The notes beneath the pieces were generated by a model, which did no database searches, had not been told where the DNA came from, and saw nothing but the letters and a program-made list of their open reading frames with translations. From Thermotoga sp. Ku-13t (GTDB lineage: Bacteria > Thermotogota > Thermotogae > Thermotogales > DSM-5069), in NCBI RefSeq assembly GCF_011057685.1, contig NZ_LNFY01000001.1:310001-374000 (forward strand): a stretch of 64,000 bases of DNA, in the 5' to 3' direction. A program made the translations under genes and the position numbers. Every line of letters starts with the position of its first letter. Positions within the stretch are counted from its first letter, which is position 1. Below, one piece after another: positions 23,232 through 49,090 of the stretch.

Positions 23232-23239
23232 GTACGTAC
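23232..23239. promoter_or_regulatory. AraR-type operator in the araR leader
   Basis: GTACGTAC is a perfect palindrome inside AAACGTACGTACATAA. It closely resembles the B. subtilis AraR operator core (ATTTGTACGTACAAAT, from memory). It lies between the araR promoter and its ribosome binding site. Confidence 0.6.
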
Positions 23240-23258
23240 ATAAAGGAGGGATCGTGCC

Positions 23259-24320
23259 ATAACTCCGAAGTACAGAGTCATCGAACAGTTCTTGCTTTCA
23301 CAGATAAAATCCGGAATATACAAACCCGGAGCGAAGTTACCCACAGAACTGGAGCTGATGGAGAAGTTTGGCGCAAGCAGAGAAACTGTTCGTAAGGCTC
23401 TGGACCGACTCGTGGTGCGAGGAATAATAGTCAGAAAGCCTGGCGTTGGCTCTTTCGTCAATTCCAGCGTTGGCAGCAGCGTCGTGGGTATCATCGTTCA
23501 GCAGATAACCAGTTACATATTCCCTTACATCGTCTTTGGTGCAGAAGAACATTTGTTCAGCAACGGATATAAAATGCTCCTTGGGAATGCCTCGGAAGAC
23601 CCCTCACGTGAGAGGCAGATCATCCAGGAATGGGTGGAGTCCGGAGTCACGGGGCTCATAGTGGATCCCGTCTACAGTGCGACGAGGCGCTCAAACAGAG
23701 ATTACATCAAATCGCTGGTGAAACAGGGTATTAGAGTTGTCATCGTGCACACGGATTGGAACATAAAAGGCGCCGGTTGTGTGGTGCTGGATGACGCGTA
23801 CGGTGGAACAAAGGCGGCTGAGATATTCCATCAGTACGGCCACAAGAGAGTGGCAGTTCTTTACAAATCGATACACTTACCGAGCTTCATCAGAGCAATG
23901 AGTTTCATTCAGCGAGCCCGGGAGCTCGGCTTCGAAAAGATCTACGAGAAATCCTTCAACGTGTCTGAATTCACGGGAGTACCGATGCAACTGGCGTACG
24001 AACTGCTCACGATGCCCAGGCAAATACGCCCCACCGCCGTTTTCTGCTACAACGACGCAACGGCTTTACAGTTACAGCTGGTGGCGAAGAGGTTGGGCAT
24101 GAGCATTCCAGAGGACCTGTCAGTGATCGGTTTTGACGATGCACCGATAGGCGATTTCAGAGATGTTCTTAGCACGTTCGCACATCCAAAGGAAGAAGTC
24201 GGAAGGAAGGCAGCCGACATTCTGTTGAAGATGCTCCAGGGTGGCGAACCAGAAAAATGCGTGCTGCAGCCAGAGTTTGTTGAAAGGAGCTCTGTGGCAA
24301 AACCGAGATCTGAGATTTAG
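23259..24320 (+). CDS. araR: AraR-type arabinose repressor (GntR HTH + LacI-like sensor)
   Basis: About 353 residues. The N-terminal GntR winged helix (PKYRVIEQFLLSQIKSG, ASRETVRKALDRL) is followed from about 80 by a LacI/periplasmic-binding-type effector domain ending in SVIGFDDAPIGDF. This is the AraR arrangement, and it precedes an arabinose operon. The start is unusual: the in-frame stop at 23241 is followed by no ATG, GTG or TTG before TTG 23292, which would cut the first HTH helix. A strong GGAGGG (23245-23250) points, with an 8-base spacing, to ATA 23259. I therefore mark AUA as the start, as an inference. Confidence 0.8.
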   Translation: MTPKYRVIEQFLLSQIKSGIYKPGAKLPTELELMEKFGASRETVRKALDRLVVRGIIVRKPGVGSFVNSSVGSSVVGIIVQQITSYIFPYIVFGAEEHLFSNGYKMLLGNASEDPSRERQIIQEWVESGVTGLIVDPVYSATRRSNRDYIKSLVKQGIRVVIVHTDWNIKGAGCVVLDDAYGGTKAAEIFHQYGHKRVAVLYKSIHLPSFIRAMSFIQRARELGFEKIYEKSFNVSEFTGVPMQLAYELLTMPRQIRPTAVFCYNDATALQLQLVAKRLGMSIPEDLSVIGFDDAPIGDFRDVLSTFAHPKEEVGRKAADILLKMLQGGEPEKCVLQPEFVERSSVAKPRSEI

Positions 24321-33500: not shown

Positions 33501-34388
33501 ATGAGAACCAACAGAGATAGGCTCGTCATGATCTCGATCCAGGGGACAATCGTTAAGCCGGAGCACACAGGAAGACATGCGGTCTCGTACGATGGAAAAC
33601 CGTTCATGCTTCCAGGAACCGGGGGCATCACCTACAACGTGAAGGTGGGAGATCCCGTTTTCGGCTGGGCTGCTGACCACGTGGAACCTGGTGTTTCGAC
33701 GATTCTCGATCAGGACAAACGAGATTCCGGGCCGAACAGGGGCTACAACTTCTACGCATGCATCGGGAACGAAGCCCGTGTCGTCACGGGTGATGCGAAG
33801 GGTGCCAGAGGAATTGTGACAGGCCACCATGGGGGAGCGGAGCACGTACTGATAGACTTTCCAGACGAGGTGCTGGAAAAACTCACACTCGATGACAAGA
33901 TCCTCATAAAAGCCTTTGGTCAGGGATTGGAATTGCTGGATTATCCCGACGTGCACGTGTACAACATCGATCCGAACCTGTTTGAAAAGCTGGGGATCGT
34001 GGAAAAGAACGGCAAACTGTTCGTACCTGTCGTCGCAATCGTGCCAGCGTATTTGATGGGTTCTGGCATAGGTTCGACCAGCATGGGCACAGGCGATTAC
34101 GACATCATGACGGCGGATCTGGAGGCATTGAAGGAGCACGGACTTTTGAACCTTCGCTTTGGCGACATCGTTTACATAAAGGACCACGACAACAGTTACG
34201 GCCGATGCTACAGAAAAGGTGCCGCGAGTGTGGGAGTTGTCATACACAGCGACTGCAAGTATGCCGGCCACGGTCCGGGTGTGACGATCTTCATGACCTC
34301 TCCAAAACCGATACTTGAGCCGGTTATCGATCCAGACGCGAACATCGGAAAGATCCTGGGGATCGGAAGGTTTAGAGAAGCATTGTGA
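33501..34388 (+). CDS. DUF4438 family protein
   Basis: A 295-residue protein of the DUF4438 family (a T. maritima member is TM1086, from memory). It contains conserved stretches such as PFMLPGTGGITYNVKVGDP, TGHHGGAEHVLIDFP and the late SDCKYAGHGPGVTIFM. No signal peptide or membrane segment is present, and its biochemical function is unknown. ATG 33501 follows GGAGGTGATCGA; the open frame upstream of it lies opposite the glycosylase gene and is not used. It is divergent from the glycosylase gene and ends at a bidirectional terminator. Confidence 0.88.
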   Translation: MRTNRDRLVMISIQGTIVKPEHTGRHAVSYDGKPFMLPGTGGITYNVKVGDPVFGWAADHVEPGVSTILDQDKRDSGPNRGYNFYACIGNEARVVTGDAKGARGIVTGHHGGAEHVLIDFPDEVLEKLTLDDKILIKAFGQGLELLDYPDVHVYNIDPNLFEKLGIVEKNGKLFVPVVAIVPAYLMGSGIGSTSMGTGDYDIMTADLEALKEHGLLNLRFGDIVYIKDHDNSYGRCYRKGAASVGVVIHSDCKYAGHGPGVTIFMTSPKPILEPVIDPDANIGKILGIGRFREAL

Positions 34389-34391
34389 AAA

Positions 34392-34420
34392 CGAAAGCCC
34401 CATCCTCGATGGGGCTTTCG
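34392..34420. terminator. Bidirectional terminator between DUF4438 and the sugar operon
   Basis: A perfect 13-bp inverted repeat (CGAAAGCCCCATC, loop CTC, GATGGGGCTTTCG) lies 3 bases after the DUF4438 stop and 2 bases after the last gene of the convergent sugar operon. It serves both strands. Confidence 0.85.
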
Positions 34421-34422
34421 AC

Positions 34423-34956
34423 TCATATCAAAATGAACTTGCCGTCCTGAGCGAAGACTCTCTTTTTGAAGCCACATTTTTCGATTGTTTCGTAATCGTG
34501 GCCAGCATGTGCCGGATAGACAGCAAAGAAAACCAGTGGTTCGCTGGAGATGTTCACCGAACGGTGCGCCCAGAATGGTGGAATGTAGACAACTTTGTCC
34601 TTTTCTATAGGAACAGCTTCGAAATCGCCAGATTTATTTTGACACAGGATCAATCCCTTGCCGCTCAGACCATAGTAAACCTCGGCAGTTGGCTCCTTTT
34701 CGTGGAAGTGCCCTTTGGTCATAAAGTATTCGCCCTGAACCATCCCAGGATGGATGATCGTGATCAAGAAGATCAGGTCTCCCTCCCTGTCCGATCTTGC
34801 AACTTCGAAAACTTCATATACAATGGGGTTTTCCTTTTCTAACAATGGATCTTGCTTCAGAAAGACGTTCTTAACATCTCGATAGCGTCTCACGATGTGA
34901 TGACCTGGAAAGTTGCTCAAATCACTCAGGTCAAAGGACACGGAGAACGGTATCAT
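34423..34956 (-). CDS. Cupin-type (archaeal-type) glucose-6-phosphate isomerase
   Basis: A 177-residue metal-dependent cupin isomerase that interconverts glucose-6-phosphate and fructose-6-phosphate. Visible are GEYFMTKGHFHEKEPTAEVY, with the HxH and glutamate metal ligands (about 83-102), and the later VVYIPPFWAHRSVN with the last histidine. The family is mainly known from Euryarchaeota such as Pyrococcus and Thermococcus. ATG 34956 follows AAGAGG by 9 bases; ATG 34989 is possible but overlaps the upstream gene. Last gene of the operon. Confidence 0.85.
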   Translation of the reverse strand: MIPFSVSFDLSDLSNFPGHHIVRRYRDVKNVFLKQDPLLEKENPIVYEVFEVARSDREGDLIFLITIIHPGMVQGEYFMTKGHFHEKEPTAEVYYGLSGKGLILCQNKSGDFEAVPIEKDKVVYIPPFWAHRSVNISSEPLVFFAVYPAHAGHDYETIEKCGFKKRVFAQDGKFILI

Positions 34957-34969
34957 CCGTACCATCCTC

Positions 34970-36409
34970 TTAGTAATCGATCCTAACATGCTTTAGTAAG
35001 AGGTACTGTTCATACGCGTGGTGAGAATTTTCGACACCCAGCCCACTCTGCTTCCAACCACCGTACGGGTAAGCGAATTCTCCGCCTGTGACGTTGTTTA
35101 TACCAACAGTGCCGCACTCCAGCAATGTAGACGCTCTAAGGGCTTTTGAAAGATCCCTCGTGTAAACGTACGCCACCAAACCATACTCCGTGTCGTTCGC
35201 CAACGAAATGGCTTCGTCGAACGTATCAAAAGTCATGATCGGGGCTGTTGGTCCAAACATCTCTTCTCTTGCAACGCGCATTGAGTGATCAATTTTGATC
35301 AAGATCGTAGGTTCGTAAAAATATCCTTTCTCAAATTTTTCGCCTGCGGGTTTCTTCCCTCCGTACAAAACCTGCGCACCTTTAGATACGGCTTCTTCCA
35401 CAGCCGAACTCACCCTTTTCCAGCCTTCAAGTGTTGTTAAAGGTCCCATCGTTACGCCTTCTTCCAAACCATTGCCAATTTTGATCTTCTTCGTCTCTTG
35501 CAAAAATGCTTCGACAAAATCGCTGAATATTGACTTATGGACGTAGATCCTGTTGATCGCATTGCATATTTGTCCCGCATTCCTGAAAGATCTCCTTGCG
35601 GCGTCTTTCGCGGCCGCAGCTATATCGGCATCGTCAAAGACTATCATGGGGCAATTACCGCCCAATTCCAAAGTTAGCTTCTTGACAGTCTTTGAAGCAA
35701 CATTCATTATGTGCTTACCGACGTCAGTGCTTCCTGTGAAAGCTATCTTGGATACAAGCGGGTGTTCTATAAGCGTCTCTCCGACCTCATTGTTCGTACC
35801 CGTAACAACGTTCAGCACGCCGGCAGGTAGGCCAGCCTCCAGGAAGCATTTTGCCAGTTCAAGAGTTGCCAACGGTGTATAGGAAGATGGCTTCGCAACA
35901 ACCGTACATCCCACCGCGAGTGCGGGGCCAATTTTCCAAGATAAGAGGAGTAACGGATAATTCCAGGGTACTATCGCGGCGACGACTCCAACCGGTTGTT
36001 TCAAGACAAAACTGATCCTATTTTCCTTGTTCGACTGATAAGTCTCCCCAAGGACACTCAGGACATTGTCGCAAAAATAGTCTATTGAATCTAAGCTGGC
36101 TTTCACTTCCTCCTTTGCTTCACTCAGTGGCTTACCTTGCTCCAGCGTCAACAGCTTTGCTATCTCTTCCTGTCTTTGCCTAGCCAACTTGGTCCCCTGT
36201 CTCAGCAGTTCAACTCTTTTGATTGGAGCCACTGTGCTCCAGGTTTTGAAGGCCTCATAAGCCGATACTATAGCCTTTTCTGTTTCCTCAGATGTCAGCG
36301 ATGGTACTTCACCGACCACTTGATCAGTGTTTGCCGGGTTACGAACCAGGATAGTTCTCTTCGTTAGCGATTCAACCATTTCTCCGGCGATGATACACTT
36401 CGAGATCAT
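34970..36409 (-). CDS. NAD(P)-dependent aldehyde dehydrogenase
   Basis: A 479-residue member of the aldehyde dehydrogenase superfamily. The cofactor part shows VPWNYPLLLLSWKIGPALA and GSTDVGKHIM. The catalytic glutamate lies in LELGGNCPMIV and the nucleophile cysteine in NAGQICNAINR (about 275). It oxidises an aldehyde to the acid; small aldehydes (lactaldehyde, acetaldehyde, glycolaldehyde) are possible because two aldolases are encoded in the operon. It follows the regulator gene by 24 bases. Confidence 0.9.
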   Translation of the reverse strand: MISKCIIAGEMVESLTKRTILVRNPANTDQVVGEVPSLTSEETEKAIVSAYEAFKTWSTVAPIKRVELLRQGTKLARQRQEEIAKLLTLEQGKPLSEAKEEVKASLDSIDYFCDNVLSVLGETYQSNKENRISFVLKQPVGVVAAIVPWNYPLLLLSWKIGPALAVGCTVVAKPSSYTPLATLELAKCFLEAGLPAGVLNVVTGTNNEVGETLIEHPLVSKIAFTGSTDVGKHIMNVASKTVKKLTLELGGNCPMIVFDDADIAAAAKDAARRSFRNAGQICNAINRIYVHKSIFSDFVEAFLQETKKIKIGNGLEEGVTMGPLTTLEGWKRVSSAVEEAVSKGAQVLYGGKKPAGEKFEKGYFYEPTILIKIDHSMRVAREEMFGPTAPIMTFDTFDEAISLANDTEYGLVAYVYTRDLSKALRASTLLECGTVGINNVTGGEFAYPYGGWKQSGLGVENSHHAYEQYLLLKHVRIDY

Positions 36410-36433
36410 CGTTTCCGACCTCCTTTGTTTGAG

Positions 36434-37270
36434 TCACCGAGCGTCAAAGGTTCGATTGAAAACCTTCGTCAACTTGGATTCTTTGTTGAGTATCTTTTCC
36501 AGCTCGTTAGCCTCAAGATGTGTTGTCTTGAACAAACGTGTTACAAACCTCGTTCGATCCGCACGGTGTTTCGCTTCGTAATATTCTACAGGGACGTTGT
36601 TGTGGGTATACGTGATACTTCTCAAGAATATCAGCGGGGCTCCGCGTTCCACTCCTAAAAGTTTGCTGTCTTCAGGGCTTGCCGATAGTGCTTCTATGGT
36701 TCGCTCGCCCCAAACAAGCTCTACCCCGTACTTGTTTTCAAGGATATCGTACAAGGATTGTGTCTCGAGGTCTTCATCCAGCAAGTTTGGGCAAAATCTT
36801 TCCGGTATATAGTTAATCACTATCAGTATCGGTTCACCCCTAACGAATCTCAACCTTTGGAGTTCGAAAACTTTCTCGCCTGTTCTTAAATCCAGATAGT
36901 AGGCAAGTAATTCGTCTGCGCTTATCAATTTCTTAGAAAGGACCTTGGTTACTGGTTCTAGACCCTGGGACTTCATATCCGCGTAGAAACCTGTCAGCCT
37001 TGATACGAGATATTCGTTGATCTTCGGTTTTATCACAACCGTTCCGACACCGCGTTTTCTCCTTATGATACCCCGGTTGGCGAGCCCAGTAAGTGCTTGC
37101 CGAACAACGATACGACTCACGCCAAAAGCTTCGCACAGTTCTTTCTCTGTTGGCAGCAGGTCCCCTGCTTTGAGATTTTGAGATATCCATTTCAGGAGTA
37201 TATTCTCGATTTGGTAATACAAAGGCACTGGAGAGTCTTTATTGACTTGCTCAGGGGGTTGAAATCCCAC
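36434..37270 (-). CDS. GntR/UTRA-family transcriptional regulator
   Basis: A 278-residue regulator: GntR winged helix at about 15-85 (PLYYQIENILLKWISQN, FGVSRIVVRQALTGLANRG), then a UTRA ligand-binding domain of the HutC type (FELQRLRFVRGEPILIVINY). Such proteins usually bind a sugar phosphate or similar effector. It lies inside the sugar operon, which it probably controls through the inverted repeats near 44701-44732. The GTG start follows TTAGGAGGCGAGG. Confidence 0.88.
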   Translation of the reverse strand: MGFQPPEQVNKDSPVPLYYQIENILLKWISQNLKAGDLLPTEKELCEAFGVSRIVVRQALTGLANRGIIRRKRGVGTVVIKPKINEYLVSRLTGFYADMKSQGLEPVTKVLSKKLISADELLAYYLDLRTGEKVFELQRLRFVRGEPILIVINYIPERFCPNLLDEDLETQSLYDILENKYGVELVWGERTIEALSASPEDSKLLGVERGAPLIFLRSITYTHNNVPVEYYEAKHRADRTRFVTRLFKTTHLEANELEKILNKESKLTKVFNRTFDAR

Positions 37271-37312
37271 AGCCTCGCCTCCTAAGCTTTATGGCATCAC
37301 GTTTCATAAGGT

Positions 37313-38290
37313 TCAATCAATTACATTCGTGTCATGAACGATTCTTTCGATTTCATTGTAAACATCATCGCTCATCTCCCATTCCACTGTTTTGACGTTC
37401 TCCTCTACTTCTTCCGGGCTGGTTGCGCCGGCGATTATAGAGGTTACAGATTCGTGTCTGAGTAACCAGTTAAGACTCAACTGGCTCAAAGGTTTCTGGA
37501 GTTTCGTAGCTATGCCTTTCAACTTGTCTACGGCATCGATGTACTTTCTGTAATTTTCGCCGACCAGCTTTGGATTGGCTGCACGAACGTCAGTGAAGAC
37601 CTCGTTTTGCGACAGTTTTCCGGTCAAAACCCCTTGCATCAACGGACTGTACGGGAAAAATGCCAAGCCATTTATCTGGCAAAACGGCAAAACCTCGCTT
37701 TCAGTACGGTATTCGAGTGCTATGTTGTGATAACTTCTAGCATTCCTCTCGAACAGATTATACAAACCCTGCATACTGCTTATGTGTGGCAGGAGACGCG
37801 CCGCAGTGTCGATAGAAAAGTTCGATAGGCCTATGAATCTTATCTTGCCCTGGTCTTTCAACTTCAGCATGGCCTCCATTGTTTCTTCAATGGGCATGTT
37901 CGGATCTGGCCAGTGCAGCTGGTAAAGATCGACATAATCAGTTTTGAGCCTCATCAAGCTGGCGTCTATTTCCTTCATAATGCTCTCCTTTGTCAGGCAC
38001 CTCTTGATCCTTCCTTGCTGATCCCAGATAAGTCCACATTTTGTTGCTATGATGATCTTGTCCCGCGGAAATCCTTTGATAGCTTTTCCCAGAATTTCCT
38101 CCGCGTGCCCAAACCCATAAACCGGTGCAACATCGAAGAAATTCACCCCGAGTTCTAACGCTTTATGCACTACTTTGATGGATTGTTCATCGCTGGAGTT
38201 TTTCCACACCTTAGGCCCAGATAAGCCCCAGCAGCCAAGGCCGATAACCGAAACCAAGACAGGGAATCTCCCAGTGCTCCTGTACTTCAT
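37313..38290 (-). CDS. Aldo/keto reductase
   Basis: A 325-residue NADP(H)-linked oxidoreductase with the aldo/keto reductase barrel: FFDVAPVYGFGHAEEILGKA (about 50-69) with the catalytic aspartate and tyrosine, then IIATKCGLIW with the lysine, and the substrate histidine in YQLHWPDPN. C-terminal LLRHESVTSIIAGATSPEEV binds the cofactor. It probably reduces or oxidises a sugar, or a short aldehyde released by the aldolases. SD GGGAGGGATAGCT precedes the ATG. The gap to the kinase gene is 2 bases. Confidence 0.9.
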   Translation of the reverse strand: MKYRSTGRFPVLVSVIGLGCWGLSGPKVWKNSSDEQSIKVVHKALELGVNFFDVAPVYGFGHAEEILGKAIKGFPRDKIIIATKCGLIWDQQGRIKRCLTKESIMKEIDASLMRLKTDYVDLYQLHWPDPNMPIEETMEAMLKLKDQGKIRFIGLSNFSIDTAARLLPHISSMQGLYNLFERNARSYHNIALEYRTESEVLPFCQINGLAFFPYSPLMQGVLTGKLSQNEVFTDVRAANPKLVGENYRKYIDAVDKLKGIATKLQKPLSQLSLNWLLRHESVTSIIAGATSPEEVEENVKTVEWEMSDDVYNEIERIVHDTNVID

Positions 38291-38292
38291 AG

Positions 38293-39837
38293 CTATCCCT
38301 CCCTCCAGTTTCGCTGCAAGGTTGCTAATTCATCAAACACAGGAACCAATGCTTGGTAACTTTTCTCAAATAAATCGTGAAGTTTATTGTAGATCTCACG
38401 ATAGCTCGTTCTTGGTTCCACAACGATCACGTCTTTGATGAAACCTCTAGCTTCATCAACTGTGATCAAACCTGCTCCTATGGCACCGGTTACGGCTGCG
38501 CCCACCGATGTGGCTTCCGCAGGGTATTCTGGTACGGTAACCACTTTTCCAAAAATATCCGCGATTATCTGCCGCCAGTTCCGGCCTTTCGCTCCTCCTC
38601 CGATCAACCTTATCCTGTCGAACCTGAAACCACCCACATTTTCAAATATGTCAAGTATTATTTTCAAATTCATCGTGACTCCTTCCAAGACAGCTCTTAG
38701 CATATCGGCCTTGTTGTGCACAACGGAGAGACCTATGAACGCTCCCCTTGCGTTCACGTTCCAACGGGGACTTCTTTCACCAAGTAGATATGGCAGGAAG
38801 ATCAAGCCTTTTGCACCTGGCTGGGTATTATCCAATACGTCATCTAAGATAGCGTAGACGTCGAGATGCAATTCGTTGGCTGCTTTGACTTCTGGCTCAC
38901 AAACTATATTCTTTATCCACTGGTAGGAAGCTCCGCCGGCTTGCATCGTACCAGTCGGGCAGAACAAACCATGCAGAGGGTAGAAGAAATTGAAGGTCCT
39001 CGCGAAAGGATCAAAGAAAGGTCTATCGGAGCACGTACTGATCCAGCTGGAAGATCCCAGGTAAAGATAGGCTTCTGTTGAATCGAAGACACCTGCTCCC
39101 AGTGTTGCAGATGGTCCATCACCGGCTCCTCTTATGACAAGAGTTTTCGGTGATAGACCGAGTTCTTCTGCGACTTTAGGTTTGATGGTCCCGACAACAG
39201 CTGTTGATTCTGTGGCCTGCGGTAACTTCTCAAGATCTAAGTCAAGAGCCTCGACTAATTCCTCTGACCAGCGTTTGTTGTTTATGTCGAAAATGTTGCT
39301 CATGGAGGCATCCGAAAAATCCGTTCCGAAGATCCCGGTGAGCTTGTAGACGATGAAATCTTTTGCAAACAAGAATTTGTGGCTTCTTCGGTAGATGTCA
39401 GGTTCATTTTCCTTTAACCACGCAATCTTGGGGCCAAAGTAAGTTGGTGTAATCCTTGAACCAGTGATCCTGTAGACCCTTTCGTTGCCCACACGCCAAT
39501 TCAGCTTTTCTGCCTGTTCGACGCTTCTCTGGTCAGCCCAGATTATTGCTCTTCTGAGAACATTCCCATCTTTATCGACAGCTACTACTCCCATCATCTG
39601 CCCGCTGAAGCTGACACATTTTATTCTTTCCGGATCGACTTTTGTTTCTGACAGCAACTTAGCCGTTGTTTGTTTGATCGAAATCCACCATTGCTGGGGA
39701 TCCTGTTCGACCCAGTTTACTACCGGATAGAACGTGTCGTATGGATAGAATGAGCTGGCTATCAGTTTTCCATCTATTCTGAACAGCGTAGCCTTGTTTC
39801 CAGTCGTACCAAGATCATAAGCAATCACGTATTCCAT
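38293..39837 (-). CDS. FGGY-family carbohydrate kinase
   Basis: A 514-residue sugar kinase similar to xylulokinase/gluconokinase-type FGGY members: YDLGTTGNKATLFRIDGK (phosphate loop, about 6-23), IKCVSFSGQMMGVV, IIWADQRS, RGAGDGPSATLGAG and LPYLLGERSPRWN. It would phosphorylate a ketose, polyol or sugar acid brought in by the ribose-type transporter. It is distinct from the kinase in the arabinose operon. The substrate is unknown. Confidence 0.88.
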   Translation of the reverse strand: MEYVIAYDLGTTGNKATLFRIDGKLIASSFYPYDTFYPVVNWVEQDPQQWWISIKQTTAKLLSETKVDPERIKCVSFSGQMMGVVAVDKDGNVLRRAIIWADQRSVEQAEKLNWRVGNERVYRITGSRITPTYFGPKIAWLKENEPDIYRRSHKFLFAKDFIVYKLTGIFGTDFSDASMSNIFDINNKRWSEELVEALDLDLEKLPQATESTAVVGTIKPKVAEELGLSPKTLVIRGAGDGPSATLGAGVFDSTEAYLYLGSSSWISTCSDRPFFDPFARTFNFFYPLHGLFCPTGTMQAGGASYQWIKNIVCEPEVKAANELHLDVYAILDDVLDNTQPGAKGLIFLPYLLGERSPRWNVNARGAFIGLSVVHNKADMLRAVLEGVTMNLKIILDIFENVGGFRFDRIRLIGGGAKGRNWRQIIADIFGKVVTVPEYPAEATSVGAAVTGAIGAGLITVDEARGFIKDVIVVEPRTSYREIYNKLHDLFEKSYQALVPVFDELATLQRNWREG

Positions 39838-40473
39838 TCAGTTCACCTCTTTGCTCAGCTTCGCAAAATCACGACTGAATTCAGCAGCGTCCTCAGCTGC
39901 TATCTCACTCGTTCGAAGTAGCTTCTCGAATAGTTGGACCGGTAGCGTGAAATGAGAAACCCCGCAATCGATGGCCTCGATAAGCTGGTCTAAGTCTTTC
40001 AAGCTCGCCACTATGAGCGTGGGGTGCGTGGAAAAGTTGCGTGATAATGCTACGAAGCGGGAAAGTAATTCAGAAGGATTCAACCCTTTTCTTTTTGATC
40101 TATCGAAATAGAAAGCAACATAGTCAACTCCAAGGGCAATTGATGAAAGGAATTGCTCGATTGTGTAAACAGCTGTGGCACAGACGCGGAAACCAGCTTT
40201 TTTGAAAGAAACAGCTACCTCGTATTTTCCAGTTACCCATGGAACTTTGACGACAAACCTGTTGTCAAGCTCGTCTGTCAGGTGTTTATCGAACGTTTCC
40301 ATGTGGATGAAAATTTCAGAAATATTTGTATTTCTCAGTCTTGCGATGACAGTCTTCAATCCTTCGCTTTCCCTATCTCTCAACATGATCGAAGGGTTTG
40401 TTGTTATTCCCAAACCAAACGTTTCTGCCAACAGAATGGCCCTTTCGCTACAACCGTCAATGTAGAATTGCAT
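39838..40473 (-). CDS. Transaldolase-family (fructose-6-phosphate aldolase-like) protein
   Basis: A 211-residue class I aldolase of the short transaldolase group. Visible: YIDG near the N-terminus, GITTNPSIM, FVVKVPW with the Schiff-base lysine, ATAVYTIEQFLSSIALGVDYVA, and ITLP-like FTLPVQLF near the end. The usual APYVNR reads AFYFDR. It may cleave or form a sugar phosphate; the short length points to aldolase rather than true transaldolase activity. The stop is adjacent to the kinase start. Confidence 0.82.
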   Translation of the reverse strand: MQFYIDGCSERAILLAETFGLGITTNPSIMLRDRESEGLKTVIARLRNTNISEIFIHMETFDKHLTDELDNRFVVKVPWVTGKYEVAVSFKKAGFRVCATAVYTIEQFLSSIALGVDYVAFYFDRSKRKGLNPSELLSRFVALSRNFSTHPTLIVASLKDLDQLIEAIDCGVSHFTLPVQLFEKLLRTSEIAAEDAAEFSRDFAKLSKEVN

Positions 40474-40477
40474 GACT

Positions 40478-41449
40478 TCATCCCCTTCTTGTTTTTACGT
40501 ACTGATCAAGGAAAACAGCAGCAATTATAATCAAACCTATCATCATTTGCATAACGAACGGGTCTATTCCGAGAAGATTCCCTCCATTCCTCAGTGTTTG
40601 GATCAACACCGCACCTATGACAGTGCCAAGGGCTGTCCCAACCCCACCACTGAGACTTGCCCCACCGATGACGACGGACGCGATTGCGTCGAGCTCGTAA
40701 CCCTGACCACCTGTGGGCACGCCCGCCGCGAGCCTTGAGGCCAACATTAAGCCAGCGATTCCGCTAAGAAAACCAGAAACAGCGTAAGCGAGCAGATAAT
40801 TAAGCCTCAAATTTATTCCGGAAAGTCTGGCGGCTTCTCGATTGCTTCCAATCGCGTAAAGGTTACGTCCAAACCTTGTGTACTTCAAAACGAGTCCTGA
40901 AATCAGAGCAATCATCAGCCACAGCCAAACGAGCGTTGGTACATCGAGGATAACGTCAGACGCGAAGTCAACGAAATTTCTCGGAAGGCCGGTTATCATC
41001 CTCCCACCCGAGATGTACATCACCAACCCTCTAACGAACGTCATCACGCCCAGCGTGGCGATGAATGGGGGTATCCTCATATCGTACACCGCGAAGCCGT
41101 TTGCTAACCCAAAAAGGGTGGAAACAATGAGCGCAATTAAAATTGCTTGTAAGCTTGGGAGTTGATAACTCAATCTGTTTGATGTAAGCATCGCAAAAAC
41201 CATTCCAGAGAGTCCCACAAGTGCCCCGACCGATAGATCTATGCCACCAGTTATGATAACGAACAGCATCGCCAATGCAACAACCCCGTTTATTGATGTT
41301 TGCCTCAGCAAGTTCGTAATGTTTCCAAAGGAGAGGAATTTGCCTTTGGTGACGGTCGCCAGGAAGACAACAAGGACAACGAATATCAGGAGCAAATTTC
41401 TCTCATTAAAAGCACTGAATGCCTTGGAAGATGCGCTTCGCTTTTCCAT
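40478..41449 (-). CDS. Ribose-type ABC transporter permease (RbsC-like)
   Basis: A 323-residue inner-membrane permease of the CUT2 family, with about eight to ten hydrophobic segments and the family pattern NRLSYQLPSLQAILIALIVS and later GRNLYAIGSNREAARLSGIN (the ATPase contact) and ASVVIGGASLSGGVGTALGT. It pairs with the ATPase 41465-42967 and the binding protein 43720-44685. Confidence 0.92.
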   Translation of the reverse strand: MEKRSASSKAFSAFNERNLLLIFVVLVVFLATVTKGKFLSFGNITNLLRQTSINGVVALAMLFVIITGGIDLSVGALVGLSGMVFAMLTSNRLSYQLPSLQAILIALIVSTLFGLANGFAVYDMRIPPFIATLGVMTFVRGLVMYISGGRMITGLPRNFVDFASDVILDVPTLVWLWLMIALISGLVLKYTRFGRNLYAIGSNREAARLSGINLRLNYLLAYAVSGFLSGIAGLMLASRLAAGVPTGGQGYELDAIASVVIGGASLSGGVGTALGTVIGAVLIQTLRNGGNLLGIDPFVMQMMIGLIIIAAVFLDQYVKTRRG

Positions 41450-41464
41450 GAGTATAATACCCTC

Positions 41465-42967
41465 CTATTTTTTAGCAACGTAGTTACTCATGGCTAACGT
41501 TAAAAGCTTTTCTTCTGAGAAATCGTTGCGTTCAACTTGACCTGCGATCATTCCGTTGGAAATGACTATGATCCTGTCAGAAATACCAATCAGCTCAGGA
41601 AGGTACGAAGAAATGAATATGACAGCTTTACCTTGACTCGCGACTTCATTGATGAGTCGATAAATTTCGGCTTTTGCCCCAACGTCTATTCCGTTCGTTG
41701 GCTCATCAAGTATGAGGATGTTCGCCAGTCTGCCCAGCCATCTCGCCAGAACAACCTTCTGCTGGTTTCCGCCACTCAATTTCTGAACTGGATGAAATAT
41801 GCTTGGAGTTTTAATGGAAAATTTGCGTACCTGATTAAGGGCTAATTCTCTCGCTCTCCGATGATCCACGAAGAGCTTCAGTCGGGCCAAGATGTCTGAA
41901 TAATTAACAGAATTTATGTTGAATTCGACATTTTGAATTGAAAAGATTCCTTGCGTTCGTCTGTCTTCGGGAAGATAACCAATTCCATGCTGTATAGCAT
42001 TTCTGGGAGATCTTATTTCAACTTTTCTACCCTGCACATAAATCGAGCCGGACTCGATGGGATCCAGACCGTAAAGCGCCCTGGCTATCTCGGTACGCCC
42101 AGCACCAACTAAACCATACATGCCAAGTATTTCACCGGACCGGAGCGAGAAAGAAATGTCCTTGAATTTTTTGCCGGTAAGGTTTTCGACCCGCAGAAGT
42201 TCCTCACCAATTGGGATTTGCTGCTTGTAGTACATTTCCTCGATCTTTCTGCCAACCATTAAGGGTACCAGTTCCTCCACTGATTTAAGCTCAGAAACTT
42301 TGTATGTGCCAACAACTTTTCCATCTTTTAGTACTGTAACGGTGTCACAGATCTCGAAAACTTCCTCGAGGTTATGGGATATGTATATGACTCCAACATT
42401 CTGACGTTTCAACGCTTTGATCATGCTGAAAAGTAGTTGTTTCTCCCTGCTGGTCAACACTGCTGTTGGTTCGTCAAAGATGACTAACTTAGGATTCATG
42501 AGTAACACCTTAGCTATAGTTACCATTTCCTTTTCAGCCAAGCTCAAATTCTTTATTGGTTTAGTGACATCAATGTCCAAACCAACTTCCCTGAGGAATC
42601 GTTGTGCGTCAAGCTTCATCTTTTTCCATCTCACGAAACCAAAACGTGTTGGCTGGGTACCGAGAAAGAAATTCTCCGCAACACTCATGTCAGGTGCTAT
42701 CATCACATCTTGATACACAGCAAAAATGCCCAATTTTCTCGAAAGGATAGGATCGATTCTTCTCAGTTCTCGCCCAAGAAAATAGATATTACCGCTGTCC
42801 TTTTCGTAAGCACCGGTAATTATTTTTATCAGTGTGGATTTACCAGCGCCATTCTCTCCAACTAAACCTCGCACTTCGCCAGGACTGAGAGTCAAGCTCA
42901 CGTTGTCCAGCGCCTTCACACCAGGAAATGATTTACTCACCCCTTCTATTTTGAGCAATTCCGTCAT
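41465..42967 (-). CDS. Ribose-type ABC transporter ATPase (RbsA-like, double domain)
   Basis: A 500-residue ATPase with two ABC domains as in CUT2 systems. The first has Walker A GENGAGKSTL (about 37-46), LSLAEKEMV and Walker B LVIFDEPTA. The second has a degenerate Walker A GLVGAGRTEIARAL, signature LSGGNQQKV and ILILDEPTNGID. The ATG overlaps the stop of the DeoC-like gene. It energises uptake of the operon's sugar. Confidence 0.93.
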   Translation of the reverse strand: MTELLKIEGVSKSFPGVKALDNVSLTLSPGEVRGLVGENGAGKSTLIKIITGAYEKDSGNIYFLGRELRRIDPILSRKLGIFAVYQDVMIAPDMSVAENFFLGTQPTRFGFVRWKKMKLDAQRFLREVGLDIDVTKPIKNLSLAEKEMVTIAKVLLMNPKLVIFDEPTAVLTSREKQLLFSMIKALKRQNVGVIYISHNLEEVFEICDTVTVLKDGKVVGTYKVSELKSVEELVPLMVGRKIEEMYYKQQIPIGEELLRVENLTGKKFKDISFSLRSGEILGMYGLVGAGRTEIARALYGLDPIESGSIYVQGRKVEIRSPRNAIQHGIGYLPEDRRTQGIFSIQNVEFNINSVNYSDILARLKLFVDHRRARELALNQVRKFSIKTPSIFHPVQKLSGGNQQKVVLARWLGRLANILILDEPTNGIDVGAKAEIYRLINEVASQGKAVIFISSYLPELIGISDRIIVISNGMIAGQVERNDFSEEKLLTLAMSNYVAKK

Positions 42968-43644
42968 TACTTTCCCTCGCTTTCAAACTGGCTTATGATG
43001 TCCACGGCATGACTGCTGCCGAATAAACTTGCGCCCAACTGCAAGAAGTGCTTGACTTGGTCTGCTGTTCTGATACCACCCGAGACTTTGATTGGCTTTT
43101 TATCCCCAAGCACACTTTTCATTATGACTACGTCTTCGTACGTCGTAGGCCTTGGCCCGAATCCAGTACCCGTCTTCACATAATCAACTTCTTCGATGTC
43201 ATGAAGAATTTCGCATAGATATCTCAACTCATGTTCGTTCAACCTGCTGACTTCAACTATGATCTTACATACTCTGCCCATTGCTTTTGTCAAGCGAGAA
43301 ACTGCAACGATCTCGTCGTGGACGTAATCCCAATCATTGGATTTAACAGCACAGAGATTCAAAACCACGTCGAAATCGGTGATCTTTGGGCTCAGGCTTG
43401 AATAATAGTCAATCTGAGCAAGTTTAACTTCTGTAGGGCTGTAGCCGAGGGGAAAGTCCACACCAACGACAATTCCTACATCGCTGTTACTTGTTAACTC
43501 TATCGCAAGCGGTATGTAACACCATGGAACAGACACAGCTCTTACGTTTTTCTGTACTGATTTGTTGATGAAGTCGATAACTTCTTTTTTATCCACATCT
43601 GGTGACAGTAATGTGCTATCGAACAGCTTGCTGATCTTGTTCAA
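42967..43644 (-). CDS. DeoC-like (deoxyribose-phosphate aldolase family) protein
   Basis: About 225 residues, class I aldolase. LFDSTLLSPD matches the IDHTLLKP start of DeoC; DVVLN holds the conserved aspartate, VKTGTGFGPRPTTYEDV the Schiff-base lysine, and IKVSGGIRT the second lysine. All key residues are kept. I choose TTG 43644, with AAAGG upstream, since it gives the normal DeoC N-terminus; starts at 43680 or 43713 would run through the intercistronic hairpin. It could cleave 2-deoxyribose-5-phosphate or a related sugar phosphate. Confidence 0.82.
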   Translation of the reverse strand: MNKISKLFDSTLLSPDVDKKEVIDFINKSVQKNVRAVSVPWCYIPLAIELTSNSDVGIVVGVDFPLGYSPTEVKLAQIDYYSSLSPKITDFDVVLNLCAVKSNDWDYVHDEIVAVSRLTKAMGRVCKIIVEVSRLNEHELRYLCEILHDIEEVDYVKTGTGFGPRPTTYEDVVIMKSVLGDKKPIKVSGGIRTADQVKHFLQLGASLFGSSHAVDIISQFESEGK

Positions 43645-43668
43645 AATTGACCAACCTTTCTTGTGGAA

Positions 43669-43689
43669 GGAGGGGGACATGCCCCCTCC
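43669..43689 (-). promoter_or_regulatory. Intercistronic hairpin after the ribose-type binding protein
   Basis: GGAGGGGG and CCCCCTCC form a perfect 8-bp stem with a 5-base loop between the binding-protein gene and the DeoC-like gene. No T run follows. It is the third such hairpin after a binding-protein gene in this window. Confidence 0.72.
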
Positions 43690-43719
43690 TGCCTGTGATC
43701 GCAAGTGAGTCAATTTAGA

Positions 43720-44685
43720 TCAGTATCTCTTTCTGAGATATGGATCAAGAACCCATTTAAGCTCATCCATATTTTCTTTTGTTACAACGTACACTCCTGT
43801 GTCGAAATACTGGGGCAATGGTTCGCCATGGATAGCCATGAATGCGAACATAACGCCCTTGTAACCCATACCGTGAGGATCCTGCACAATTAAAGCTTTC
43901 AAGCTACCATTTCTCAGTGCCTCGACTTCCTGCGGATCTGAGTCGTAGGCCACAGCAATTATCTTATCGTGCAACTTCCTTTCTTCTATCACTCTCGCAA
44001 CGCCATCTCCTGTGTGGTTGTTGTCGGCGAAAACGGCAACAAGTTGATCACCATAAGCCGTGACGAGGTCCTCCATTGCTGCTGCAGCTTTTGCTATGTC
44101 GTTGTCAACATACCTGGTTGGGAGGATTTCAAGATCTGGTGCGAGCTCTTTAAGCCTCGTCTTGAACCCTTCATCCCTGTCAATGAGGACCTGAACACCT
44201 GCCATAGAGCTTATCAATCCGACCTTACCTTTCAGTGGTTTTCCTGCCTTTTTCAGAAGCTCGACGATCTTCTCAGCGGCCAGCGCGCCGCCAAGTCTGT
44301 TGTTCGTTGCGAGGAATGAGTGATATCCCGTGTCGTGCACAAAATTGTCGATGAGAATGATCTTGATCCCCTGCTGGTAAGCCTTGTTCAAAGCAGGTGC
44401 CGTTGCATGAGAACTCGTCGAAGCGATTACGATTGCATCGGGTTTGGTCCTGATAACGTCCTCGAGAATCGCAACTTGCTTATCGATGTCTGCTTCGGAC
44501 GGAGGACCATACACTGTTACTTTGATCAAACCCTGCAGGTCACGTTCCGCATTCTTCGCACCAACGATCGTGTACTGCCAGAACTCAGAGTCAGTGGCCT
44601 TCACAATGAAAGCGATGTTGTAGGCTCCCAAGACGCTAACTGTGAACACGGCAAGAACAACAGGCACGAGAAGCAACCTCTTCAT
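43720..44685 (-). CDS. Ribose-type ABC transporter substrate-binding protein (RbsB-like)
   Basis: A 321-residue exported protein: signal peptide about 1-20 (MKRLLLVPVVLAVFTVSVLG), then YNIAFIVKATDSEFWQYTI and IVIASTSSHATAPALNKAY, the periplasmic-binding type 4 fold, ending with VVAVFADNNHTGDGVARVIE and ALIVQDPHGMGYKGV. It is the first gene of the ten-gene operon 44685-34423. The ligand is a sugar or polyol of unknown identity. AGAGGGGGTG precedes the ATG. Confidence 0.9.
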   Translation of the reverse strand: MKRLLLVPVVLAVFTVSVLGAYNIAFIVKATDSEFWQYTIVGAKNAERDLQGLIKVTVYGPPSEADIDKQVAILEDVIRTKPDAIVIASTSSHATAPALNKAYQQGIKIILIDNFVHDTGYHSFLATNNRLGGALAAEKIVELLKKAGKPLKGKVGLISSMAGVQVLIDRDEGFKTRLKELAPDLEILPTRYVDNDIAKAAAAMEDLVTAYGDQLVAVFADNNHTGDGVARVIEERKLHDKIIAVAYDSDPQEVEALRNGSLKALIVQDPHGMGYKGVMFAFMAIHGEPLPQYFDTGVYVVTKENMDELKWVLDPYLRKRY

Positions 44686-44700
44686 ACACGCACCCCCTCT

Positions 44701-44732
44701 GAAAGTTGTTCTATTATAATGTTATAACTTTC
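44701..44732. promoter_or_regulatory. Operator region of the ribose-type operon
   Basis: GAAAGTT (44701-44707) and AACTTTC (44726-44732) are inverted arms. The right half contains the palindrome GTTATAAC (44721-44728), close to the GT-N-TA-N-AC form of GntR/HutC operators. Between them the minus strand carries TATAAT (44719-44714), a likely -10. The element lies 16-47 bases before the binding-protein ATG. Binding by the GntR/UTRA protein of the operon is an inference. Confidence 0.5.
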
Positions 44733-44875
44733 TATCCAAACGTCAAGCATGATTTTCCGAAATTTTTACTAGATATTCTGCTTCACAGACTATCAGCACC
44801 TGGTAGTGATTGAAAACGTAATTTTTCTCGTTATTTCTTTCGAAACCTTGCAGAGTTCTTGCGTTCCTTCACCCG

Positions 44876-44884
44876 TGCTAAAAT
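44876..44884 (+). promoter_or_regulatory. Extended -10 promoter of the chemoreceptor gene
   Basis: TGCTAAAAT, an extended -10, lies 20 bases before the TTG start at 44905. The -35 (TTCTTG, 17 bases upstream) is weak. Confidence 0.5.
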
Positions 44885-44904
44885 CGTCAGCGGGATGAAT
44901 CGAA

Positions 44905-46851
44905 TTGAAGAGTATCCGCTCGCGAATGCTCGTATGGCTGCTGGTACCATTCGTAACGTTTTCGATCTTCATCGCGTATCTGGTTTACAGGAACGTGTCT
45001 CTGTCTGCAGTCACGATGGTTGAAGTAGCTGCACAGAAACTGGTATTGCTCGGCAGCAGGACTGTTACGGAATGGTTGAACAGGATCGCCGATCGAGTCA
45101 AGATTCTGGCAGAGAAGAAAGTAATCGCTCAGATAACAATCGAAGGCGCGGAAGATCTCTTCATCAGCTACGATGATGGAATAGCCAGGTCAACGAAGAC
45201 ACAAACAGCTGACATATCGGAGAAGACTTACTTCAGAGAAATCTTCTCAGGTAAAGATTTGATAATCAGTCAGCCGGATCTTTCACCTTTTACTTCATCT
45301 CCTTCCTTCGTCGTTGCCGCAGCCTTTAAGGATTATCAGGGGAAAACGCTTGGTTTGTACGGTGCAGTGGTATCACTTGAAACGTTAGGAAAATTGGTCG
45401 ATGAAATCAAGCTCAGTCAACAGAGTTTCCCAGTCGTTGTGTCTTCTTCGGGAGCAGTGATGGTTCATCCGGACCGCTCACAGGTGATGAGGCTCAACCT
45501 GTCGAGAGCGAACGAACAGTTAGGATACAGGGGATTAAGTGAGATTGGTGAAAGAATGACAAAACTTGAAAGTGGCTTTGGAACTTTCACCGATGACAAA
45601 GGCCGTGAACATTACATCTTCTTCACCCCCATCAAGAGTTCTCCAGGATGGTCGCTTGGGATCGTCGTTCCAGTGGATGAGGTACTGAAGGATGCTCGAA
45701 GCATGAGCACACTGGTCGTGATATTTTTTGCTGTACTCGTGGGAGTTATTTCTTTTGTTGTTTACATGGTTTCCAATTCTGTTACAAAACCTATCAAGAA
45801 ACTCGCGGGACAGGTGGACGAGTTCGGAAAAGGAAATCTCTCAGTGACTTTCAAGGTGGAAAGCAAGGATGAAACTTTCCAAATAGCTCACGCACTGCAG
45901 CAGATGGCGTCTACTCTGAAAAACACAGTTCAAAAGATTCTTCAGGTTTCCGATGATATAGACAAGCTATCTAAAGATTTTCAGCAAGACTCTGTTGGGC
46001 TCGAGAACTCGTGTCAAGAGCTGAGCAATCAAATGAATGAGATCTCACACTCGTTGAGTGAAGCTTCTCATCTTCTCAGACAGTTCGTGGAGGGGGTCAA
46101 CGAAGTTTCCAGCAATGCGCAAAATGTTGCTAAAGCTTCCCAGGAGCTGGCTGAGAAATTGGAACAAGCAAGGAAAATCACACAAGAAGGCCATAAGGCC
46201 CTCGAATCGATAATTGGCCTCATCAACGCCTCGCGAGACAAATCGGGCCTCACAGCTGAAGTGGTCGAAGAGTTGTCCATCCGGGCGCAGCGGATAGAAG
46301 AAATCGTCAACACTATCAACTCTATCGCAGAACAAACGAACCTTCTCGCATTGAATGCCGCGATAGAGGCGGCCAGAGCGGGTGAGGCTGGTAGGGGATT
46401 CGCTGTTGTAGCCGATGAAATTCGGAAGCTCGCTGAACAGAGTAAGCTATCGACTCAAAGAATAAACGAAATACTCAGTGGTATAAGGCTTGAAGCTGAA
46501 AAAGCTGCAAACGCAACTAGGGACATGGTGGTATCCATTCAGCAGATGAGTCAAGAGTCTGGCAACATTATGGCATCACTCGATCAGATGGCAAAGCATA
46601 TCATCGAGATAGCGTCGATGTCTGACAACCTTGCTGCAAGTGCACAGGAACAGAGCGCAGCATCAGAACAGATGAACGCCGCAGTCAAGTCTTTTGAGCG
46701 ATCGATGACATCCATTCTGGAGAAGGTCCGGAAAATGGGTCGATCTGTGCTTGATCAGCTGAACATCAGCAGCCAGATCAACGAAGCAAGCCTAAGGCTT
46801 GTCGAACTTGCCCAGGTATTGCGTCAGCACACTGGTCATTTCAAACTGTGA
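44905..46851 (+). CDS. Methyl-accepting chemotaxis protein with dCache sensor
   Basis: A 648-residue chemoreceptor. TM1 is about 8-29, the extracellular double-Cache ligand domain about 35-270 ([34 protein letters not shown]), TM2 about 272-293, then HAMP ([20 protein letters not shown]) and the coiled-coil signalling domain. The conserved hairpin tip [20 protein letters not shown] starts near residue 476. No CheR-docking pentapeptide is seen at the C-terminus. TTG 44905 follows GGGATGA. It divides the ribose-type and glycogen-related regions; the ligand is unknown. Confidence 0.92.
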
Positions 46852-46960
46852 TTTTGGAGCTTGTAACGTTTGTGGAGTAGCTGGGGCGTGGAAAGTTAGG
46901 GCTATTCTGGGTGATCTTGACTCGTAAGCGCATTTCGGCGTAGCACGGGAGGTCGGCTCG

Positions 46961-49090
46961 ATCAGCATCAATCCTGAGAGTAACGTACATCTGCAAACCA
47001 AAAGGGGTTATCCAAAGCTGGGTGCGACGCCGGATGAAACCGGTGTGAACTTCGCCATCTTCAGCAGGCATGGCAGAAGAGTGATACTGGAACTGTATCA
47101 GAACTACTACGACGATAGGCCATCGCACAGGTTCGTGCTGGACCCCATCAGAAACAGAACGGGAGACATCTGGCACATCTATGTCTACGGTGTTGGGCAC
47201 GGTCAGTACTATGGATGGCGCATCGATGGAGAATACGATCCAGCAAACGGTAAAAGGTTCAACGTCAACAAGCTTCTCATCGATCCCTACGCGAAGGCCA
47301 TATCGTCTTCGATCGACTGGGAAGAAGATTACATCTACGGTTATGACAGAAACTCTCCCGAAAAGGATCTCTCTTTCTCGATGCTGGATTCCGCTCAGAG
47401 TCCTGCAAAATCCATCGTCATAGACGATTCGAAGTACGATTGGGGGAACGATAAAAGGCCTAAGATTCCGTGGAAAGATACTATTATTTACGAAATGCAC
47501 GTTCGCTTTTTCACCATCAGTCCCACTTCCAGGGTGAAACATCTCGGTACGTACAGAGGATTGATGGAGAAACTGGATCATCTCAAGGAACTTGGAGTGA
47601 CGACCATAGAATTGATGCCAGTCTTCGAGTTCTCGGTGAACTCGAACACTAACATTAATCCGTTCACCGGCAAACGTCTGAAAGACATGTGGGGATACAA
47701 TCCTCTCGGTTTCTTCGCAGTGACTGGCAACTATTCTACCGGTGTGAAGTTAGGAGAGCAGGTGTTCGAATTCAAAGACTTGGTCAAGGAACTGCACAGG
47801 CACGGTTTCGAAGTGATACTGGACGTTGTTTACAACCACACAGGAGAAGGAAACGAGCTGGGTCCAACACTCTCTTTCAGGGGTATCGACAACGAGATCT
47901 ACTACATGCTCGATACAAAGAACAAAAGGTACTATTTGAACTATTCCGGGTGTGGTAACACCATGAACTGTAATCATCCGGTCGTCAAGGAGATGATCAT
48001 AGACAGTCTGAGGTACTGGGCCACAGAGATGCACGTGGATGGCTTCAGATTCGATCTGGCCGCCATCTTGGGTAGAACACCGGATGGAAGATGGATCGGT
48101 GACTTCTCGCTGCTCAAAGACATCTCTGAAGATGCAATCTTGCACGATTTGAAGCTCATCGCAGAAGGCTGGGATGCGGCGGGAGGATACTTTCTCGGGC
48201 AATTTCCTGAGGGCTGGGCAGAATGGAACGGGAAGTACAGAGATACCGTGCGACGCTTCGTCAGGGGTGATGAGGGTGTCGTCGCGGAGCTCGCCACGCG
48301 GATTGCGGGAAGTGCGGATCTGTACGCGGGTAGATCACCGCACGCGAGCATAAATTTTGTTACCTGCCACGATGGTTTCACGCTGAGAGATCTGGTGACG
48401 TACCGTTACAAACACAACGAGGCAAATGGGGAGGGTAACAGAGACGGCGCGGATGAGAATTTCAGCTGCAACTACGGTGTGGAGGGCGAAACGGACGATC
48501 CGGTGATCAACAGAATCAGAAAACAGCAGGTGAAAAACTTCATTACGATCTTGATGGTTTCACACGGTACTCCGATGGTTTTGATGGGTGATGAGATGTA
48601 CAGGACACAGAAAGGCAATAACAACGCCTACTGTCACGACGATGAGACGACCTGGCTTGACTGGACCTTGAAGGAAAAGTACAAGGACATCTTCAGGTTC
48701 ATGAAGAAGATGATCGAGTTCAGAAAATCTCATCCCGCGCTGAGGAGAGAACATTTCTTTTCAGGTCAACCCACGAGCAGAGGCATTCCCGATCTCACGT
48801 GGCATGGAATCAGACCATTCGAACCGGATTTTTCATATCATTCGCGTTCGATCGCGTTCATGATCAGCGGTGATGTTGGAAACGGCGAGCAAGACGACGA
48901 TATCTACGTCATTTTGAATCAATGGAGAGAACCGCTCAGATTCGTACTTCCTTATCTGCATGGAAAGAGCTGGTACAGAGTGGTTGATACTTCAAAAGAT
49001 TGTCCCGACGATTTCCTTGACGAACCTCAGCATGCTGGATACGTTTACACGGTTCAGCCGCATAGCTCTGTGGTCTTTGTCGGAAGATGA
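46961..49090 (+). CDS. glgX: Glycogen debranching enzyme / isoamylase (GlgX/TreX type, GH13)
   Basis: About 709 residues from the proposed start. The N-terminal CBM48-like domain begins KRGYPKLGATPDETGVNFAI, and the GH13 barrel has DVVYNHTGEG, VDGFRFDLAA (nucleophile D), LIAEGWDAAG (acid E) and FVTCHDGFTLRDL. It splits alpha-1,6 branches of glycogen or amylopectin. No ATG, GTG or TTG lies between the in-frame TAA at 46925 and GTG 47045, which would delete the start of the domain. GGGAGG (46947-46952) points at ATC 46961 with an 8-base spacing, so AUC initiation is inferred. Confidence 0.83.
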   Translation: MSINPESNVHLQTKRGYPKLGATPDETGVNFAIFSRHGRRVILELYQNYYDDRPSHRFVLDPIRNRTGDIWHIYVYGVGHGQYYGWRIDGEYDPANGKRFNVNKLLIDPYAKAISSSIDWEEDYIYGYDRNSPEKDLSFSMLDSAQSPAKSIVIDDSKYDWGNDKRPKIPWKDTIIYEMHVRFFTISPTSRVKHLGTYRGLMEKLDHLKELGVTTIELMPVFEFSVNSNTNINPFTGKRLKDMWGYNPLGFFAVTGNYSTGVKLGEQVFEFKDLVKELHRHGFEVILDVVYNHTGEGNELGPTLSFRGIDNEIYYMLDTKNKRYYLNYSGCGNTMNCNHPVVKEMIIDSLRYWATEMHVDGFRFDLAAILGRTPDGRWIGDFSLLKDISEDAILHDLKLIAEGWDAAGGYFLGQFPEGWAEWNGKYRDTVRRFVRGDEGVVAELATRIAGSADLYAGRSPHASINFVTCHDGFTLRDLVTYRYKHNEANGEGNRDGADENFSCNYGVEGETDDPVINRIRKQQVKNFITILMVSHGTPMVLMGDEMYRTQKGNNNAYCHDDETTWLDWTLKEKYKDIFRFMKKMIEFRKSHPALRREHFFSGQPTSRGIPDLTWHGIRPFEPDFSYHSRSIAFMISGDVGNGEQDDDIYVILNQWREPLRFVLPYLHGKSWYRVVDTSKDCPDDFLDEPQHAGYVYTVQPHSSVVFVGR

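Follow-up and report, generated by a model that had tools for sequence, protein, structure and literature searches.

Probable translation of glgX from an AUC codon and candidate rare start codons that recur in genes of its family

The glgX frame and its candidate start codons

The glgX gene of the present genome raises the question of which codon starts its translation. The gene lies in the window, i.e., the whole stretch of 64,000 nucleotides analysed here (C1:310001-374000; the draft genome has 15 contigs, a size of 2.08 Mb and a completeness of 99.5%), in a frame read directly as open from 46928, after a TAA at 46925-46927, to a stop ending at 49090. The first canonical start codon in this frame, read from 46928, is GTG 47045. 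A first-pass annotation of the same DNA had reported no ATG, GTG or TTG between this TAA and GTG 47045, and direct reading bears this out, with no upstream canonical codon found in frame before the stop. The placing of GGGAGG eight bases ahead of ATC 46961 is likewise correct (46947-46952), and so is the homology described upstream of GTG 47045, as coding conservation extends upstream of it within the genus. On this reading of the sequence, glgX is probably translated from a non-canonical AUC, either 46967 or 46961, two codons upstream. The first-pass proposal of an AUC start thus stands as the likeliest; however, ATC 46961, the codon it had named, is not the one aligned with the ATG of the relatives, which is 46967.

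The identity of the protein is clear from its domains. GlgX matches TIGR02100 with 789.3 bits (cut-off 640.9), both PF02922 (CBM48, beginning at open-frame residue 30) and PF00128 (alpha-amylase) score above cut-off, and the motifs of the catalytic region align with 2vnc and 7u39, the best solved relatives. The same-genus comparison set consists of the present genome with G003, G004, G006 and G005, to which GlgX is 95, 92, 90 and 88% identical, respectively; among the matches listed, from which very near records may be absent, the best-matching named record is a Thermotogota MAG at 77%, which points to a Pseudothermotoga-like bacterium as the probable source.

In all four genus mates glgX opens with ATG-AAY-CCN (MNPG...), so that the rare start codon is not kept among the orthologues. 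Their N-terminus reads MNPG(S/P)(D/E)VRL(Q/K/R)T(K/R)RGYPKLGA, and the present genome reads INPESNVHLQTKRGYPKLGA at this place; the stretch QTKRGYPKLGATPDETG belongs to the residues encoded upstream of GTG 47045. In the 18 codons that begin with CTG 46991 and end just before GTG 47045, pairwise differences pooled over the five genomes of the genus are distributed 18/14/84 over the three codon positions, with 74 synonymous versus 23 non-synonymous codon differences. This excess at third positions and of synonymous changes indicates that the 18 codons ahead of GTG 47045 are translated in the genus.

Between the two AUC codons we lean to 46967, because it aligns with the ATG of the relatives. The Shine–Dalgarno (SD) spacing instead favours 46961, since a spacing of 8 bases occurs in 136 of 548 genes with a conserved SD-supported canonical start and one of 14 bases in only 5 of the 548. 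The distance from GGAGG to the ATG of glgX is also long (12-13 bases, counted manually) in G004, G005 and G006.

Table 1. Coordinates of the features discussed (positions without a prefix are those of the window; an L handle names another locus of the genome)
Feature	Coordinates	Strand	Remarks
Shine–Dalgarno AAGGAGG of araR-like gene	23243..23249	+	read from sequence
araR-like regulator	23259..24320	+	putative start ATA 23259; GntR and Peripla_BP_3 domains
Block without counterpart at this place in G003	34379..46985	.	sugar-uptake-type genes and a chemoreceptor gene
Methyl-accepting chemotaxis protein gene, upstream of glgX	44905..46851	+	Pfam MCPsignal, HAMP, dCache_1
glgX leader	46852..46966	+	unalignable with genus mates
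Shine–Dalgarno-like GGGAGG of glgX	46947..46952	+	8 bases to ATC 46961, 14 to ATC 46967
ATC, alternative glgX start	46961..46963	+	choice of the first-pass annotation; SD spacing 8
ATC, likeliest glgX start by homology	46967..46969	+	aligned with ATG of 4/4 genus mates
glgX coding sequence from its putative start	46967..49090	+	TIGR02100, CBM48, alpha-amylase
CTG, rival glgX start	46991..46993	+	onset of normal conservation; Leu kept in 5/5 genus genomes
GTG, first canonical codon of glgX frame	47045..47047	+	no SD motif in scan
ykuK-like gene	L125:4354-4818	+	GGAGGTGAT then TTC-TTA-CTC
Amino-acid ABC permease	L127:1137-1811	-	ATA/GTA column
DHH phosphoesterase-like gene	L153:10112-10975	-	ATC behind AAGGAGG
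fliI	L155:1-942	-	CTG column in 5 genus members
mutS2 of the present genome	L158:15660-17954	+	ATA/ATT column in 11/11 family genomes

How often such an arrangement arises by chance was estimated by first-order Markov resampling (5000 trials), with the pattern defined as a 5-base SD motif followed at 6-11 bases by an ATH codon in frame. The pattern appeared in 6% of trials for the 40-codon gap, in 10% for the whole leader and in 13% when CTG was counted too. At this chance level the SD arrangement alone is not strong, and it is homology that carries the case. The surroundings of the start hold few other features: no consensus promoter or terminator was found in 46700-47100, no second copy of the glgX leader in the genome sequence searched, and no repeat in the leader other than a single imperfect 11-base inverted repeat. 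The predicted RNA structure at the starts is not unusual (z of -1.10 and +0.95 for glgX, -0.40 for the araR-like gene). A search for odd tRNAs with ARAGORN, covering 40 loci and 800 kb of the 2.08-Mb genome, returned three tRNA-Met (cat) and nothing unusual.

The junction at the 5' end of glgX and the competing readings

Colinearity with G003 is largely kept, at 88-93% identity per segment over the 454 kb compared. Immediately ahead of glgX, G003 has only ~180 bases in place of a 12.6-kb block of the present genome, which reaches into the first codons of the gene. Eight of the nine ORFs scanned in this block match Pfam families (aldehyde dehydrogenase, GntR/UTRA regulator, aldo/keto reductase, FGGY kinase, transport permease, ABC ATPase, sugar-binding protein and chemoreceptor), and one has no match. 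G005 also carries a chemoreceptor-like gene directly upstream of glgX, with a gap of only ~20 bases.

The leader aligns with that of no genus mate. Comparison with G003 gives 10 mismatches over the 24 bases of glgX codons 1-8, versus 2 over the 54 bases of the next 18 codons (Fisher p = 7e-5). Because these abnormally diverged codons lie at the edge of the 12.6-kb block, a rearrangement or recombination has probably replaced the leader, the SD, the start and the first codons of glgX. The present genome is the only one of the five without the glgX ATG, and the junction at this 5' end would explain why the ATG is missing here alone.

The sequence is best read as weak translation of glgX from AUC, as for infC. 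GGGAGG would set the AUC in the P site in an otherwise ordinary 30S initiation, where initiator fMet-tRNA would read it with a third-base mismatch and at lower efficiency; IF3 would presumably limit this initiation as it does for infC, and the rearrangement would have replaced the former leader and ATG. Four parts of this scheme are inferred: that AUC is the initiation codon, that output is low, that IF3 exerts control, and that the leader and ATG were replaced. Counted in favour of an AUC start are the frame with its SD, the genus alignment, the codon-position pattern, the identity of GlgX, the rare columns in other genes and the junction. Counted against it are the chance level of the SD, the fact that SD and homology favour different ATC codons, the divergence of codons 1-8 as if unconstrained, and a branch excess of amino-acid changes that would also fit a partial loss of function.

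The alternative that survives best, though still unlikely, is initiation at CUG 46991 (LQTKRGYPKLG...), a codon missing from the candidates of the first-pass annotation. The sharp change in conservation relative to G003, the nearest relative, falls at this codon, and CUG is also the apparent fliI start in this genus (5/5, with ATG, GTG or TTG at the same place in five genomes of other genera). However, no SD is recognisable at a suitable distance ahead of CUG 46991, and the Leu is internal in the relatives, where it is also encoded by CTA or TTA.

A similarly small probability attaches to the reading that the rearrangement destroyed the start and left glgX silent or decaying. It would account for the absence of the ATG in the present genome alone, and for a modest surplus of amino-acid changes along its branch (17, versus 5 on the G003 branch; 33 versus 29 for six other genes), which hints at weaker constraint (Fisher p = 0.076 against these control genes). 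However, the surplus is not significant when codons 1-8 are left out (p = 0.18), the frame is intact over more than 700 codons at the 95% identity to G003 given above, and third positions continue to take most of the substitutions (fraction 0.75).

Initiation at GTG 47045, which would shorten GlgX by 26 residues, is marginally less plausible again. Although GTG 47045 is the first canonical codon and would be the automatic annotation, and a protein of this shorter length would, at 775.9 bits, still be recognised by the GlgX model, a scan for an SD motif ahead of it found none. A start there would also drop the first 13 of the 83 CBM48 model positions and with them the first CBM48 strand, lowering the CBM48 score from 54.2 to 40.8 bits, and the upstream codons evolve as coding sequence in the genus. 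A sequence or assembly error at the start codon is very improbable. The genome is a 15-contig draft, and thiI is broken close to its start by a homopolymer difference of one base, but a single miscalled base would explain neither the 10 mismatches over 24 bases nor a leader wholly unlike that of the relatives. The remaining rare starts, moreover, are found again in independent genomes.

Rare start columns in other genes of the family

Whether AUC would be an isolated choice in this lineage was approached through other genes. The family sample comprised 11 genomes in four genera, and start columns, together with any upstream in-frame canonical codons, were read from the DNA of each locus. The start of mutS2 is ATA in 10 and ATT in 1 of the 11 family genomes, behind GGAGGTG in all of them, and in 10 of the 11 loci the stretch from the upstream stop to the start column is free of canonical codons, while one has such a codon. 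Among 19 mutS2 loci read from the order's two other families, 15 have a canonical codon 1-2 codons into the aligned start region and 2 are ambiguous; in G042 and G044, which belong to one of those families, GTA-ATA follows GGAGGTGA with no canonical codon for 13 codons. The apparent rare start of mutS2 is therefore general in this family, and by these two genomes it may recur outside it.

Several further genes behave in a similar manner. The start column of the amino-acid ABC permease is ATA in 4 and GTA in 5 of nine genomes, with an in-frame stop two codons earlier in all nine. For the MFS transporter, ATA is found in all five genus members, with an in-frame stop 2-3 codons before it, and four genomes of another genus have ATT (three) or ATA (one); 3 of these 4 have ATG or TTG 2-3 codons earlier, and an in-frame ATG, GTG or TTG lies upstream in 3 of the 9 loci overall. 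The fliI column is CTG in the five genus members, one of which has TTG two codons earlier, and ATG (three), GTG (one) or TTG (one) in the five other-genus genomes, with a GAGGAGG motif before all of them.

The start of infC is read as ATC in 7 and ATA in 4 of the 11 family genomes, behind AGGAGG or GGGAGG, and in the present genome GGAGG, 8 bases and ATC follow one another with the same spacing as at ATC 46961 of glgX. Ten of the 11 loci have an in-frame TTG or ATG at least 6 codons upstream, partly within a terminator-like hairpin, and ATC/ATA is taken as the likely start by analogy with known infC genes. By eye, a GGCGGGC/GCCCGCC hairpin with a T run stands just before the infC SD in the family (L287), resembling a leader attenuator.

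The first-pass annotation had likened glgX to an araR-like gene of the same window, located outside the 12.6-kb block, and the same arrangement of SD and ATH codon is indeed present in both. The two cases nevertheless differ in kind: the araR-like column is family-wide (ATA 5, ATC 3 among 8 orthologues, with an SD-like motif in all), whereas that of glgX is seen in this genome alone, at a rearrangement junction, so that the araR-like gene does not directly vouch for glgX. An in-frame canonical codon lies upstream in 5 of the 8 araR-like loci, and the other three, the present genome among them, are free of one. Just ahead of the araR-like SD lies the palindrome GTACGTAC (23232-23239), which we take to resemble an AraR operator. 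At the araR-like gene, the MFS transporter, mutS2 and fliI, the upstream canonical codons are mostly 2-6 codons away, often within the SD-like motif; such in-frame codons weaken the wider case for rare starts.

A survey of gene starts covered 621 gene pairs from 854 kb of the present genome (41%) and 800 kb of G003. In 548 pairs a conserved, SD-supported canonical start was found (ATG 307, GTG 143, TTG 98), and the other 73 lack one by this criterion. The first-pass annotation had suggested searching the genome for further genes with an SD followed by an ATH codon, and the survey over this 41% did find more candidates, some of them less certain. Inspection added a DHH phosphoesterase-like gene (ATC), a yhcC-like gene (ATT), rsmD (CTG) and a ykuK-like gene as less sure members. 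The DHH phosphoesterase-like gene has 51 codons without a canonical start after its ATC, and it overlaps the end of mutS; its column (ATC in 8 and ACC in 2 of 10) is situated inside this overlap, so that conservation of the ATC may reflect the mutS frame. Orthologues of ykuK are present in 10 of 11 family genomes, and in the two where the start was read, the present genome and G003, no canonical start occurs for 15 codons after GGAGGTGAT.

Under a strict automatic filter, 10 pairs out of 613 remained for the present genome, and 2 out of 245 for a control genus of the same order. Five of the ten are plausible by eye (mutS2, fliI, DHH, rsmD and ykuK), versus neither of the two in the control (Fisher p = 0.33, not significant); the filter also missed the araR-like gene, the MFS transporter, the permease and glgX. 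Since this contrast is not significant, the wider case rests on the family-wide start columns. Other flagged ORFs were rejected by eye as overlaps with neighbouring genes or antisense shadows, and thiI was rejected as a missing start, as it differs from G003 by one homopolymer base. This apparent one-base frameshift falls at an A run (L119 ~3075-3110, G000:C1 ~223075) and may be a genuine disruption of the gene or an error of the draft sequence within the homopolymer.

The candidate set consists of infC, mutS2, the araR-like gene, the MFS transporter, the amino-acid permease, fliI in one genus, and perhaps the DHH phosphoesterase-like gene, rsmD, yhcC and ykuK, amounting to ~1% of the surveyed genes. 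Behind SD-like motifs these genes appear to start with AUA, AUC, AUU, CUG and even GUA, and several of the starts are conserved across genera. The recurrence of these apparent rare starts at the same columns of several family genes is a larger finding than glgX itself. It lends good support to the use of AUA/AUC initiation in this lineage, as the first-pass annotation had supposed for this organism.

Comparison with known systems

That the columns of mutS2, the permease, the MFS transporter and infC have been kept on rare codons suggests that these starts are retained on purpose in this lineage. It is about an even call whether the family holds its rare-start set as deliberately low-translation genes tuned by IF3, a set larger than the few cases reported in other bacteria, with glgX as a recent recruit. 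Gene finders assume ATG, GTG or TTG starts, so that truncated N-termini would be annotated for rare-start genes. The set also opens the question of how many genes a bacterium holds at low translation through the start codon, and glgX offers an example of how a rare start may be acquired through rearrangement.

No description of AUA/AUC starts in Thermotogales was found in the open-access literature, judged by titles and the openings of abstracts. The parts drawn on here from the T. maritima genome paper (PMC3636130), which deal with start codons and ribosome-binding sites, mention no rare starts, and the terms AUA, AUC and Thermotoga are absent from PMC5622118.

Elsewhere, according to the parts of two reports drawn on here, infC starts with ATT in E. 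coli and ATC in Streptomyces, IF3 represses non-canonical starts, and sigR of Streptomyces has a GTC start in 32 of 34 species (PMC5472188); in S. aureus, infC, ccpN and citZ start with AUA, and reporters with such starts give ~10% of the AUG output in poor medium (PMC13009471). A glgX start at AUC would resemble that of infC in its ATH codon behind an SD-like motif, although the infC start is ancient and autoregulatory, whereas that of glgX is confined to the present genome. The sigR case, as far as the part of PMC5472188 used here goes, differs in that repression by IF3 was demonstrated there and is assumed here, and in that the glgX start is not conserved; its clade-conserved non-canonical start behind a strong SD is matched by mutS2 and the others of the family. 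For citZ, the relevant part of PMC13009471 provides ribosome profiling and reporters, where glgX has inference, and concerns AUA rather than AUC. However, citZ is a metabolic gene with a non-canonical start in one lineage, as glgX appears to be, and its translation is reduced but real (PMC13009471, same part).
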